Origin: Chryseobacterium gleum
Lineage (GTDB): Bacteria; Bacteroidota; Bacteroidia; Flavobacteriales; Weeksellaceae
NCBI RefSeq assembly: GCF_900636535.1
Contig: NZ_LR134289.1
Location: forward strand, 372,001 to 436,000
DNA length: 64,000 bases
Reading direction: 5' to 3'
The notes beneath the pieces were generated by a model. It made no database searches, was not told the DNA's origin, and saw only the letters and a list, made by a program, of their open reading frames with translations. Shown in pieces: positions 34,547 through 40,376 of the stretch. The position numbers and the translations under genes were made by a program. Each line of letters starts with the position of its first letter. Positions within the stretch are counted from its first letter, which is position 1.

Positions 34547-34554
34547 TAATTTTG
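34547..34554 (+). promoter_or_regulatory. Promoter box TAATTTTG of the 34567 gene
   Basis: An exact TAnnTTTG match 12 bases before the ATG at 34567. It rules out the upstream TTG at 34552, which is part of the box. Confidence 0.65.
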
Positions 34555-34566
34555 CAGTCTAAAATT

Positions 34567-35079
34567 ATGACGAGTCTCTCAGGATATTTACCATATGCAT
34601 TTGCATTGATTATTGCGATTCCTTTTCTGGTTTTGCTCAGACAATTTGTACACTCATACATTACTCTTAAGAACCAGGAAATCAAATTACTTACCGTGAA
34701 ATCAAATTCAGAGAACAAAGCACATTCCTATGAAAGAATGACACTGTTTCTGGACAGGATTAAGCCTTCAAACCTTATTCATAGATTTGACAGAGGGCTG
34801 GCCGTTCATGAGTTTATTTTCCTTACAGAAAAAGCGATCAATGAAGAGTTTGAATATAACTCATCCCAGCAGTTATACATTACAAAAAATTCATGGCAGA
34901 ATATTGTAGACTCAAAAAATGCAATTATAGAACTACTTCATAAAACCTATGACGGGCTGAAGGGAGAGGTTCAGCTGGATGAATTCAAAACGGTTTTCAT
35001 CATGAATTATATGGAAGGCAACGATTATATTGCCGAAACAATAGAAGATTTAAGAAAAGAAATTTTAATAATAACTTAA
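34567..35079 (+). CDS. Conserved flavobacterial membrane-anchored protein
   Basis: 170 residues from the ATG at 34567. A single membrane helix (YAFALIIAIPFLVLLRQFV) precedes a helical cytoplasmic part with SYERMTLFLDRIKPSNLIHRF, then FLTEKAINEEFEYNSSQQLYIT and NSWQNIVDSKNAI. From memory this arrangement is conserved in Flavobacteriia next to inorganic pyrophosphatase genes, but the function is unknown. The pyrophosphatase gene starts 17 bases after its stop. Confidence 0.72.
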   Translation: MTSLSGYLPYAFALIIAIPFLVLLRQFVHSYITLKNQEIKLLTVKSNSENKAHSYERMTLFLDRIKPSNLIHRFDRGLAVHEFIFLTEKAINEEFEYNSSQQLYITKNSWQNIVDSKNAIIELLHKTYDGLKGEVQLDEFKTVFIMNYMEGNDYIAETIEDLRKEILIIT

Positions 35080-35096
35080 AAAATAACAGATAAATA

Positions 35097-35708
35097 ATGA
35101 TTCCAAATTTTAAAGCACATCCATGGCACGGAATTTCTGCAGGAGAAGATGCGCCAAATGTTGTAAACGTATTTGTGGAAATTGTTCCTTCAGATACTAT
35201 TAAATATGAAGTAGATAAAGAAACAGGATATTTAAAGGTAGACAGGCCGCAGAAATTTTCTAACATTATCCCTGCTTTGTATGGGTTTGTTCCAAGAACA
35301 TACTGTGATAAAGAAGTAATGAGACTTGCTGTAGAATCAGGAGCTGATGATGTTACAATGGGAGATCATGATCCGCTTGATATTTGTGTTTTAAGTTCTC
35401 ACAACATCCACGCCGGAGGTCTTTTGATGGAAGCTATTCCAATTGGTGGTTTTAAAATGATCGACGGAGGTGAAGCGGATGATAAAATTGTTGCAGTAAT
35501 GATCAATGATCACGCTTTCGGGCATTTCAGAGATATTTCTGAATTACCTGAAGCAGAAGTGAAGAGATTAATGCACTATTTCCTTACGTACAAAAACTTA
35601 CCGGATGAGCCTGCAAAATGCAGAATCCAGGAAGTTTACGGTGCAGAACATGCGAGAAAAGTGATTAAAGCTTCTCAAATAGATTATGCAGATAAATTCG
35701 GAGGATAA
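35097..35708 (+). CDS. ppa: Inorganic pyrophosphatase, soluble family I
   Basis: 203 residues. The family I signature DHDPLDICVLS contains the metal-binding Asp cluster (canonical DxDPxD), and further catalytic regions are NVFVEIVPSD, IPALYGFVPRTYCDKE and KIVAVMINDHAFGHF. Hydrolyses cytosolic PPi to phosphate to pull biosynthesis forward. A membrane ion-pumping pyrophosphatase is encoded only 2 kb away (37647), so this chromosome segment keeps two PPi-consuming enzymes close together. Ends at a strong terminator. Confidence 0.95.
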   Translation: MIPNFKAHPWHGISAGEDAPNVVNVFVEIVPSDTIKYEVDKETGYLKVDRPQKFSNIIPALYGFVPRTYCDKEVMRLAVESGADDVTMGDHDPLDICVLSSHNIHAGGLLMEAIPIGGFKMIDGGEADDKIVAVMINDHAFGHFRDISELPEAEVKRLMHYFLTYKNLPDEPAKCRIQEVYGAEHARKVIKASQIDYADKFGG

Positions 35709-35780: not shown

Positions 35781-37511
35781 TCAATAAATTGAGACTCTTT
35801 TGTACACGGAGTTTCCTTCTTTTATAGTTTCAAGAACTTTGATCTTTCTAAGATTTTCAGGATTTATCGTTAAAGGATTCTGATCCAGAATAACAAAGTC
35901 CGCTATTTTACCTGCTTTAATAGATCCTTTTCTATTTTCTTCCTGCAACTGATAAGCTCCGTTAATGGTAATCGCTTTTAGAGCTTCAATGGGAGAGATT
36001 CTTTCATTCGGTCCTAAAATCATTCCTGAGCGCGTTTTTCTATTCACTGCTGCGTATACTGCCGTTATCAGATCTGGTGGAGTAACCGGAGCATCATGAT
36101 GAATCGTAAACGTAATGCCTGCTTTTAATGCAGAGTTGGCCGGACTTATAAAAGCTGCTCTTTCGGGACCAAAAACACTTGAGTAATGCCAATCTCCCCA
36201 TAAATAAGCATGAGTAGAAAAGTAAGAAGGAATTACCCCTAATTCTTTTATCTTTTGAATATGATCAGGACGGCTGTTTTGTACATGAATTAATGTTGCG
36301 CGCAATTCCGGCTGGTAAATATTTTCATCTTTTAACCTTTTGATAACGCGTATAGCCTGATCAATTGCTGCATCTCCGTTTACATGAAGCTGCGCAGTGA
36401 TATGATTTTGGAAAAGTGTTTTCAGATCGTTATATAACGTTTCATCCGTAAAAATGGGAAATCCTTTATAGTCTTTAGACTGACCTTCCGGCGGAACTAA
36501 ATAAGGCTGTGTCAACCAGGCTGTTTTTCCCTGAGGAGAACCATCATTAGAAAATTTGAAGCCAGCCAGTTTCAAACGATTTTCATACTTCATATACTTT
36601 GGCTTGAAATTGTTGAAATCTTTTTTGAAATATTCATAATCAGGAAAGTAAACAATATCGGCTTTAAAAAGATGTTGAGAAGCTGCCTTTTCTAACAAAA
36701 CTACACTTTCTCCCATAGTTCTTCCATCACAAATAGTCGTTTGCCCATAGCTGAGCCATTCATCCTGGGCTTTCATCAGGTTTTCCATGGCATGAGCCTG
36801 GGTATCTTTGCCTTTACTCATTTTTTCCGTTAAGGTCAGCAACGCTGTGAAACTGGCATTCTCTTCCAACTTTCCATTCAGTTTTCCTGTTGCTTTATCT
36901 CTTCCGATGTGTCCTCCTTCAGGATCTTTTGATGATTCTGTTATTCCCAGAAGTTGCAGCATTGCACTGTTTGCTACACTGGCATGACCTGAGGCGTGAA
37001 TGACAATGATAGGATTGGTTTTGCTGATGACATCCAGTTCTGTTCTTGTAGGATGACGGTGTTCCGCCATTATTGCATCATCATAACCATTTCCGATAAT
37101 TGGCTGTTGAACTGAGATTTTATTGTCTTTGATGTAGTTTTTAAACGTAATCTGTAAATCTTTAATAGAATTTACAGTGCCATAAGGTTCGGGGGACAGA
37201 TCTACAGCGTCCATAATCCCGGCTCTTGATGTAAGATGTCCATGAACATCTATAAAACCAGGAAGAAGAGTCTTTCCATTTAAGTTAATCAATTTAGTGG
37301 CTGATCCTGAAAAACGCTCTGCATCTGATTTTGTTCCTGCAAAAAGTATTTTTCCGTCTTTAACGGCTACTGCTTCAACCTGGGGAGAAGAATCCTCCAT
37401 TGTTATAATAGGTCCTCCGAAATATAGTATTTCAGCTTTTTCCTGTGGCATCTTATGATGACAGCTGCTTATGCCTGCAGATAGGATAAGGGTGTATAGT
37501 ATCTTTCTCAT
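35781..37511 (-). CDS. YtcJ-like amidohydrolase, lipoprotein
   Basis: 576 residues with a lipobox near the N-terminus (LILSAGISSC). The amidohydrolase (Amidohydro_3) barrel shows GFIDVHGHL (metal HxH), then a bridging region, VNGDAAIDQAI, and a later TFTIHHDAPVTPPDLITAVYAAVNR typical of N-substituted formamide deformylase/YtcJ proteins. The substrate is unknown. Single gene, convergent with ppa. Confidence 0.88.
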   Translation of the reverse strand: MRKILYTLILSAGISSCHHKMPQEKAEILYFGGPIITMEDSSPQVEAVAVKDGKILFAGTKSDAERFSGSATKLINLNGKTLLPGFIDVHGHLTSRAGIMDAVDLSPEPYGTVNSIKDLQITFKNYIKDNKISVQQPIIGNGYDDAIMAEHRHPTRTELDVISKTNPIIVIHASGHASVANSAMLQLLGITESSKDPEGGHIGRDKATGKLNGKLEENASFTALLTLTEKMSKGKDTQAHAMENLMKAQDEWLSYGQTTICDGRTMGESVVLLEKAASQHLFKADIVYFPDYEYFKKDFNNFKPKYMKYENRLKLAGFKFSNDGSPQGKTAWLTQPYLVPPEGQSKDYKGFPIFTDETLYNDLKTLFQNHITAQLHVNGDAAIDQAIRVIKRLKDENIYQPELRATLIHVQNSRPDHIQKIKELGVIPSYFSTHAYLWGDWHYSSVFGPERAAFISPANSALKAGITFTIHHDAPVTPPDLITAVYAAVNRKTRSGMILGPNERISPIEALKAITINGAYQLQEENRKGSIKAGKIADFVILDQNPLTINPENLRKIKVLETIKEGNSVYKRVSIY

Positions 37512-37646: not shown

Positions 37647-40376
37647 ATGGATCTATTTGTGTTAGTGCCAATTTTTGGTGTCATAGCTTTGCTTTATACA
37701 TTTCTTCAGAGCAACTGGGTCAATAAACAGAATGCCGGAAATGAAAAAATGAAAACAATCAGCGGGCATATTGCAGACGGTGCAATGGCTTTTCTAAAGG
37801 CTGAATACAAAATCTTAACGTACTTTGTTGTAGTGGTTGCTATTTTACTGGCAGTGATGGGGTCTAGTAATGCCAATTCACATTGGAGTATAGGAATCGC
37901 TTTTGTGGTGGGGGCTATATTCTCTGCCTGTGCAGGATTCATCGGAATGAAAATCGCTACTAAAGCTAATGTCAGAACGGCAGAAGCGGCAAGAACTTCA
38001 CTGTCTAAAGCTCTTAAAGTATCCTTTACCGGAGGTTCAGTAATGGGAATGGGGGTTGCCGGACTAGCTGTTTTAGGTTTGGGAGCCTTATTTCTGATTA
38101 TTAAACAGATTTTTGCGCCGGATGCTACAGTAGATTCTCATGAAATGGAAAGAACCATTGAAATTCTCACCGGATTTTCTCTTGGTGCAGAATCCATAGC
38201 GCTTTTTGCAAGAGTAGGAGGTGGTATTTATACAAAAGCAGCAGACGTAGGTGCCGACCTTGTGGGAAAAGTTGAAGCCGGAATCCCGGAAGATGATCCC
38301 CGAAATCCCGCAACCATTGCAGATAACGTAGGAGATAATGTGGGAGATGTAGCAGGAATGGGAGCTGACCTTTTCGGATCTTATGTGGCAACGGTTTTAG
38401 CTACCATGGTATTGGGTAGAGAAACCGTTTCTGATGATGCTTTCGGAGGTTTTGCCCCGATTCTTTTACCGATGCTTATTGCAGGAACAGGAATTATATT
38501 TTCAATGGTCGGAACTTTATTTGTAAAAGTAAATGATAATGAAGGTTCATCCACTTCAAGTGTTCAGAATGCGCTTAACCTTGGAAACTGGGGAAGTATT
38601 GTGATTACTGCTATTGCTTCTTACTTTCTGGTAACATATATCCTTCCTGAAAAAATGGTTCTCAGAGGCCATGAATTTACCAAAATGGGAGTGTTCGGGG
38701 CCATAATGGTCGGACTGGTTGTAGGAACTTTAATGAGTATTATTACAGAATATTATACAGCAATGGGTAAAAGACCGGTTTCCAGCATTGTGAGACAGTC
38801 TTCTACAGGACATGCAACCAATATCATCGGAGGGCTATCCGTTGGGATGGAATCTACCTTGCTTCCGATTATTGTATTGGCAGGAGGTATCTATGGTTCT
38901 TATCTCTGTGCGGGACTTTATGGAGTAGCTATTGCAGCAGCCGGAATGATGGCTACTACAGCCATGCAACTTGCCATCGATGCGTTTGGTCCTATTGCCG
39001 ATAATGCGGGAGGTATTGCTGAGATGAGTGAGCTGCCGAAAGAAGTAAGAGAGAAAACAGATATTCTGGATGCTGTAGGAAATACAACGGCTGCTACCGG
39101 AAAAGGATTTGCTATTGCTTCAGCTGCTTTGACTGCTTTAGCCTTATTTGCGGCATTTGTAGGAATCGCAGGAATTGACGGTATTGATATTTACAGAGCA
39201 GACGTTCTGGCGGGACTATTTGTTGGCGGAATGATTCCTTTTATTTTCTCATCATTGGCAATCACAGCAGTTGGACAGGCAGCTATGGCAATGGTAGAAG
39301 AAGTAAGGAGACAGTTTCGTGAAATTCCGGGAATTCTGGAAGGAAAAGCACAACCTGAATATGAAAAATGTGTTGCTATTTCTACAGATGCATCCATCAG
39401 AAAAATGATACTTCCCGGTGCGATAGCCATTATTTCTCCCTTACTGATCGGATTTATTTTCGGGCCTGAGGTTTTGGGAGGATTCCTGGCGGGGGCCACT
39501 GTTTGCGGAGTTTTGATGGGAATGTTCCAGAATAATGCCGGAGGTGCCTGGGATAACGCCAAAAAATCATTTGAAAAGGGAGTGGACATCAACGGACAAA
39601 CCTATTACAAAGGTTCAGAGCCTCATAAAGCTTCCGTAACCGGAGATACGGTAGGAGATCCGTTTAAAGATACGTCAGGCCCTTCTATGAATATCCTGAT
39701 CAAATTAATGTCAATCGTTTCTTTGGTTATTGCGCCTACTTTGGCTGTGCTGCATAAAGATAAAATTGAAGCGAACAGAAAAGCAAAGATTGAAAGTCTT
39801 ACCGGAGTAACCGGCACTGCTACTGTCGTTACAGATACTAAAGCAGTACAGGTGATTCCCAGTCAGGTTCAGGGACATCTTAATGAAAACGGGGACTTTG
39901 TGTATGAAACGGGAAATATTCAGAAAATAAAACTGGAGGGTGGAAAAACAATTGCTATCGGAGACGGAAGCCAGCTTTATCAGCTGTATAATGTGGTTAA
40001 GCAAAAAGATAAATCTGCCCTGGATCCTAATAAGTGGTACACGATAGAAAACCTTTATTTTGAAACAGGTTCAAGCGATTTAAAACCAGGCTATGAACTT
40101 CAGTTAAACACGCTGGCTGAAATTTTAAATGCTTACCCCAACCTTAAAATAAAATTAGGAGGTTATACAGATAACAGTGGGAATGAAGAAAGTAATCTTA
40201 GCCTGTCTAACCTGAGAGCACAAACAGCGAAGCTTAAATTACTTGAGCTAGGGGTTTCAGCAGACAGAATAGAAGCAGAAGGCTACGGATCTCAGCATCC
40301 TGTATGTGAAGCTAATGATACAGATGAGTGTAAAGCAAAAAACAGAAGAATTGATGTAAGGGTTCTGGCTCTTTAA
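37647..40376 (+). CDS. hppA: Membrane ion-pumping pyrophosphatase fused to a periplasmic OmpA domain
   Basis: 909 residues. Residues 1-705 are a complete K+-dependent membrane PPase with about 16 helices: catalytic core [43 protein letters not shown] (residues about 200-245, read in parts) and [10 protein letters not shown], whose Ala after GNTT indicates K+ dependence. After a 90-residue linker, residues about 800-909 form an OmpA domain: [34 protein letters not shown] and NRRIDVRVL, with the Asp and Arg that hold diaminopimelate in OmpA-type domains. The frame is continuous. Ion (Na+ or H+) not decided. Confidence 0.93.

Follow-up and report, generated by a model that had tools for sequence, protein, structure and literature searches.

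A membrane pyrophosphatase fused to an OmpA domain in Chryseobacterium gleum, and a possibly exchangeable periplasmic C-terminus in Bacteroidota pumps

The window analysed here is a stretch of 64,000 nucleotides of Chryseobacterium gleum, in which one gene encodes, in a single continuous frame of 909 codons, a full membrane pyrophosphatase (mPPase) joined to an OmpA domain (Table 1); the open reading frame call and Pfam agree on this point, which was the starting claim of the first-pass annotation. The fused gene is the sole mPPase match in its own genome (5.6 Mb, single contig), and the nearest named homologues of its product are from Chryseobacterium. A soluble pyrophosphatase, previously placed 2 kb away, does lie 1.9 kb upstream, with the addition that an amidohydrolase-like gene on the opposite strand separates the two. 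Among 28 loci of the window's family, the Weeksellaceae (L067-L094), the DUF7935 gene, the soluble pyrophosphatase and the mPPase are direct neighbours in 14; since these 14 include six of the 11 family loci whose mPPase has no OmpA tail, the gene order appears to be independent of the tail. No separate OmpA gene was seen near the 11 tail-less mPPases, two of these loci spanning only 5 kb and L067 including 0.3 kb upstream. No mPPase was found in five genomes listed under genus code g9 of the family, nor in G130, which belongs to the window's genus.

Table 1. Features of the fused gene and its neighbours, in window coordinates. The 214 fused OmpA regions include the window's own, and about 120 of them are near copies of the window's protein; statements that rest on PMC10897367 refer to the available part of that paper.
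Feature	Position	Strand	Evidence
DUF7935 gene, conserved neighbour of soluble pyrophosphatase	34552..35079	+	PF25589, 100.8 bits
Soluble family I pyrophosphatase	35097..35708	+	PF00719, 148.9 bits; NF001886, 308.8 bits
Amidohydrolase-like gene	35781-37511	opposite	named by eye; between soluble pyrophosphatase and mPPase
Fused gene, mPPase + OmpA tail, 909 aa	37647..40376	+	single open frame, ATG start; PF03030 + PF00691
mPPase domain, residues 12-695	37680..39731	+	PF03030, 907.2 bits (cut-off 29.7), profile 1-645 of 645; Foldseek 4a01
Glu182, position 5.43, semi-conserved ion-gate glutamate	38190..38192	+	alignment to VrPPase; 47/47 fused family rows
Ala482 to Gly485, positions 12.46 to 12.49, K+-dependent type	39090..39101	+	residues 478-487; rule of PMC10897367
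Helix 16, residues 658-702, catalytic residues to periplasm (predicted)	39618..39752	+	model; motif positions, charge count
Basic helix 704-719 and disordered linker 717-741	39756..39869	+	pLDDT <50 at 717-741; mean identity 0.31 at 723-748
Small beta-beta-beta-alpha module, residues 743-785	39873..40001	+	model; conserved residues in family rows
OmpA domain, residues 804-900	40056..40346	+	PF00691, 64.9 bits (cut-off 27.2); fold matches 3td3, 5wtp, 5u1h
Asp842, predicted peptidoglycan-binding Asp	40170..40172	+	47/47 family rows, 214/214 fused regions
Arg857, predicted peptidoglycan-binding Arg	40215..40217	+	47/47 family rows, 214/214 fused regions
Cys887 to Cys895, candidate disulfide of exported domain	40305..40331	+	both Cys in 47/47 family rows

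The fusion is not peculiar to this genome. An mPPase was found in 80 of the 148 family genomes searched: 66 as frames of at least 906 aa, 11 as full frames of 728-777 aa, one cut by a contig end and two as fragments. We read 59 of these loci, namely 47 of the 66 with long frames (window included), all 11 with short ones and the one cut by the contig end, leaving out the two fragments; the OmpA tail is present in all 47 long frames read and in none of the 11 short full-length ones. Both Pfam domains also occur in each of the 120 best homologues of 8000 scored, which range from 93 to 100% identity, the window's own protein being one of them. Thirteen sequences from the genus, 907-911 aa long, give dN/dS values of about 0.02 in the pump, 0.17 in the linker, 0.11 in the small module and 0.06 in the OmpA domain, which are only rough because synonymous sites are nearly saturated; by these sequence-based estimates the OmpA tail is under purifying selection. 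An error of sequencing or assembly that joined two genes, raised by the first-pass annotation as one way in which its reading might fail, can be dismissed with near certainty, as no point was found in its favour and against it stand the recurrence of the open frame in 47 family loci (window included) and in all 120 listed homologues, and purifying selection on the tail.

A model was calculated with AlphaFold2 from 49 aligned sequences (mean pLDDT 86.3, pTM 0.75), a prediction that had been proposed as a check; pump, helix, disordered stretch, small module and OmpA domain appear in it as separate parts. Foldseek matches the pump to the mPPase structures 4a01 and 4av3 (TM-score 0.87-0.88 by target length; 4a01, 0.88). 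The conserved catalytic motifs of mPPases were located in the pump and aligned to VrPPase (4a01). With the full PF03030 profile and Ala482 at position 12.46, they uphold the earlier description of the core as a complete K+-dependent mPPase: in the available part of PMC10897367 an alanine at 12.46 denotes K+-dependent pumps and a lysine K+-independent ones, and the residue in the window is not a lysine.

As to the ion, all 47 fused family rows have Glu at 5.43 and Gly at 6.53 (Gly244), and position 6.57 is Ala248, aligned opposite a Glu of VrPPase 4a01. The pump has therefore the gate of the Flavobacterium johnsoniae type, with Glu at 5.43 and none at 6.53 or 6.57: as far as the accessible parts of PMC10897367 and PMC6882861 describe it, the K+-dependent H+-PPase of that organism has the same semi-conserved glutamate at 5.43, and the window's protein shares this residue and, by prediction, the K+ dependence. 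On the basis of these gate residues we predict that the window's protein is a K+-dependent H+ pump of this type. NCBIfam names it 'sodium-translocating'; a Na+ pump was considered and judged unlikely, because the gate residues point to H+, and the name is likely to be wrong for this clade.

The active site of mPPases is cytoplasmic. Since a catalytic motif of 14 residues (666-679) is found near the start of helix 16, and since Lys and Arg number 26 in the predicted inside loops vs 7 in the outside ones when the 16 helices are taken to alternate in direction, the first one starting outside, the end of helix 16 is predicted to face the periplasm, and the C-terminus of the protein with it, as had been assumed at first for the chain end. 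The helix that follows helix 16 is at odds with this simple charge rule: its 20 residues, which were excluded from the 26 vs 7 count, include 5 Lys+Arg and 3 Asp+Glu, and it is unusual for an outside segment. What had been described as a 90-residue linker exists as a stretch of sequence, but it is not a plain linker: in the model the basic helix leads into a disordered segment of about 25 residues, which is followed by a beta module, small and conserved. Across the fused family rows the inter-domain stretch measures 79 to 133 residues; in the 47 rows residues 723-748 are variable (mean identity 0.31), and in the module G749, Y753, G756, G772 and S775 are kept in every row.

The fold of the terminal domain is matched by Foldseek to the OmpA domains 3td3, 5u1h and 5wtp (TM-score 0.78-0.81 by target length; 3td3, 0.80). 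The expected Asp and Arg, already recognized at first sight, are confirmed by the PF00691 match and aligned in all 47 fused family rows; presumably they bind peptidoglycan, as the corresponding residues do in A. baumannii OmpA. Both are also kept in OmpA fusions on other cores, K+-dependent with E6.53 (14/14) and K+-independent (5/5). OmpA domains in general conserve this Asp and Arg, and their conservation thus shows a retained domain, not its ligand. Cys887 and Cys895 may form a disulfide. The tail has seven other matches in its own genome, the best being a protein of 443 aa (L177) that shares 45% identity with the tail query (169 residues) along residues 47-166 of the latter. As in the window's protein, a hydrophobic stretch similar to a transmembrane segment is followed in L177 by a similar-looking segment and then by OmpA; unlike the window's protein, L177 has no pump, and its N-terminal part resembles DUF937. 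In Hymenobacter, two OmpA proteins match the tail from its residues 743 and 748 onward, the small module included. Judging from these sequence matches, the tail has the look of a prefabricated building block for periplasmic proteins of Bacteroidota.

We read the protein, with a probability of about 0.7, as a K+-dependent, H+-pumping mPPase with a periplasmic C-terminus to which a flexible arm and an OmpA domain are attached, the tail tethering the pump to the wall. The OmpA domain would bind peptidoglycan; the pump dimer, with its two tails, would be held to the wall by OmpA, and in this position would use cytoplasmic PPi to export H+. Because the fusion is real, the C-terminus is predicted to be periplasmic, the OmpA fold is recognized and Asp and Arg are present in 214/214 regions, a peptidoglycan tether appears to be the best single reading of the OmpA tail, and the invariance of Asp842 and Arg857 next to a linker that is free to vary counts in its favour. 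A tether to the cell wall was also the proposal of the first-pass annotation, and as a reading of this particular tail it stands on the fold and on the Asp/Arg pair; it does not stand as a general need of the pump, as relatives carry YceI, FKBP or Cys-rich tails, and the 11 family loci without an OmpA tail mark the tether as dispensable. For the further suggestions of a coupling to envelope mechanics or of a bridge to the outer membrane this analysis offers no support.

The variety of tails emerges from wider samples. Almost every genome of the phylum sample has an mPPase match (381 of 395, with 150 of the matches listed), as opposed to 80 of 148 in the window's family. An even sample of the class, 144 Bacteroidia genomes of which 137 have an mPPase, yielded 31 frames of at least 862 aa, whose tails are YceI in 21, Cys-rich in 5, OmpA in 3 (the window, L019 and L202) and FKBP in 2. 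These types were assigned by reading, by Cys count and with profiles built here; the OmpA and YceI detectors derive from the fused tails themselves, and Pfam confirmed single cases and totals. Thus, in 39 long tails of the class and order samples, Pfam recognizes YceI in 22, FKBP_C with FKBP_N in 3 and OmpA in 1, and our own profile recognizes YceI in 21; ten tails scanned singly gave YceI in 2, FKBP in 2, BON with OmpA in 1 and nothing in 5. All 31 frames of at least 862 aa and 39 of the 40 fetched frames of 795-861 aa were read (L263 is without the motif), leaving out a few more of 795-861 aa and all shorter ones; L213, with ambiguous letters, was kept out of both the tails and the tree. Because tails were chosen by frame length, these counts do not give the share of each type among all mPPases. 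An OmpA domain at the C-terminus of mPPases, whose spread had been left for a search, is therefore found beyond the window, and it is a minority tail in Bacteroidia; the idea that it might be the usual one was rejected on the 3 of 31 long frames of the class sample.

Among the 39 tails of frames of 795-861 aa, 29 are Cys-rich; this set gave no Pfam match at 0.001, and a single weak NCBIfam match (TIGR04117). In 78 pooled tails (L184-L262) 35 are Cys-rich, and 15 share the pattern [MLIF][ST]xE[EQA]Cxx[YMHT]C[DK]xx[GK]C[ST]xE[EQ]. YceI-fused mPPases occur in many family codes of the class (L184-L197, L201, L203-L208). A PF01880 (desulfoferrodoxin) domain is found at the C-terminus of two listed mPPases, P0203 and P0221, and in Rubricoccus marinus the C-terminus bears BON followed by OmpA (P0121 = L055). 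The Rubricoccus protein resembles the window's in being a K+-dependent mPPase with a C-terminal OmpA, and differs from it in its E6.53 core, in the BON ahead of OmpA and in its place in the tree, apart from the window. L009 has a Cys-rich stretch in the arm as well as OmpA, and its g11 relatives L029 and L068-L071 a Cys-rich tail only.

The history of the tails was followed on trees of pump cores, which are quick trees with SH-aLRT support only. On 91 chosen cores, a tree in which long branches meet, 18 changes are needed to account for the label OmpA-fused vs unfused, and starred branches force 15 of these. On 77 chosen cores the seven tail types need 29 changes (minimum 6, shuffled mean 44.3) and the OmpA label alone 14, all these counts being blind to gain vs loss. 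Close relatives may have different tails: L078 (OmpA) is beside L223 (Cys-rich), and L193 (YceI) is beside L072 and L077. The number of changes, intermediate between the minimum and the shuffled mean, and the differing neighbours indicate that tails cluster and yet were often gained, lost or swapped. A single origin of mPPase-OmpA is unlikely in view of the 18 and 14 label changes. The window's family occupies two places in the pump tree, so that whole-gene transfer is possible and may contribute to the pattern.

In light of these data we consider it reasonably probable that the periplasmic C-terminus of Bacteroidota mPPases is an exchangeable socket, refitted over and over with envelope modules that are not related to one another: OmpA, YceI, FKBP together with its N-domain, the Cys-rich motif, PF01880, and BON with OmpA. 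The OmpA tail would then be one fitting of this socket, with no part in the mechanism of pumping. No obvious common ligand is apparent for the other modules at this attachment point, and this counts against the tether explanation. By a different reading, which we regard as possible, if somewhat doubtful, the pump is only an abundant membrane anchor on which periplasmic domains hitch-hike for display, and neither the pump nor its position is affected by the OmpA tail. In its favour, the modules listed above are all unrelated and share one attachment point, the linkers are variable, and the FKBP-fused pumps of L199 and L200 are each followed directly by a free FKBP gene. OmpA is itself an anchor, and hence an odd domain to display on one; moreover, a lipoprotein signal would seem a cheaper way to the same end. 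The free FKBP genes (L199:5773-6486 and L200:5812-6543) are possibly the source of the fusion, which would then look like the joining of the pump to the gene downstream of it.

Two other readings concern what the tail does to, or away from, the pump. It might be a regulator whose ligand state alters pump activity near the ion exit, since it starts at the periplasmic end of helix 16, the helix that bears the gate lysine 16.50 according to the available part of PMC10897367. This is unlikely, with about 25 disordered residues between tail and pump and with an inter-domain length so variable in the family as to argue against tight coupling. Still more improbable is that the tail is cleaved off and acts as a free periplasmic OmpA protein: the disordered arm would be accessible to proteases, but it is so poorly conserved that no shared cleavage motif is evident.

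The wall tether itself lends itself to a direct test, namely whether cutting the tail would free the pump in the membrane. More generally, mPPases have so far been studied as bare pumps, and the PDB matches of the pump are mPPase chains of 729-774 residues that show no second domain. Should periplasmic modules be present on many Bacteroidia pumps, then a second half of the working enzyme has received hardly any attention, and the kind of module gives a hint as to the place in the envelope at which the pump, driven by PPi, does its work. If the socket holds, the pump would serve broadly as a platform in the inner membrane, bringing wall-binding, lipid-binding, folding or metal/thiol functions to the site of H+/Na+ export.

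Among known systems, the MotB and PomB stators, which are linked to ion flow and have a periplasmic OmpA domain, offer an analogy for an inner-membrane protein of this kind. The tail matches PomB and MotB chains of the PDB weakly by sequence; the stators are driven by ion flow, whereas the membrane part of the window's protein is a pump driven by PPi. By this analogy, the tail may work like a MotB/PomB-type anchor, although the protein is not a member of that group.

The fusion of mPPase and OmpA as such is already in print, in another clade: the available part of a 2024 review (PMC11210485) reports an OmpA-like domain on the m-PPases of Paucibacter and its Burkholderiales relatives, predicted to be K+-insensitive, and leaves its role open. 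The m-PPase of Paucibacter sp. KCTC 42545 (UniProt A0A0U2VTE8, 810 aa) has, like the window's protein, a C-terminal OmpA-like domain; by this description its core is predicted to be K+-insensitive, whereas the core in the window is of the K+-dependent type (A12.46 in place of K12.46). Within the literature covered, to which most subscription papers did not belong, OmpA was found as an mPPase tail only in this review, and no YceI or Cys-rich tail was found. What is new here is the K+-dependent, family-wide version of the fusion and, above all, the pattern of an exchangeable socket. In the 91-core tree the window's core belongs to a different deep clade from the K+-independent fusions. Of the latter, a probe search found P0241 and P0244, and the 80 named loci to which P0244 led include three fused ones (Lysobacter, Methylibium and Glaciimonas). 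In five K+-independent fusions the arm is shorter than in the window's protein, which also has the extra module, and the OmpA domain is without part of its conserved C-terminal half, with Asp and Arg kept. In one betaproteobacterial locus (L158:6238-7737), a free OmpA-domain protein of 499 aa is encoded just downstream of an unfused mPPase.
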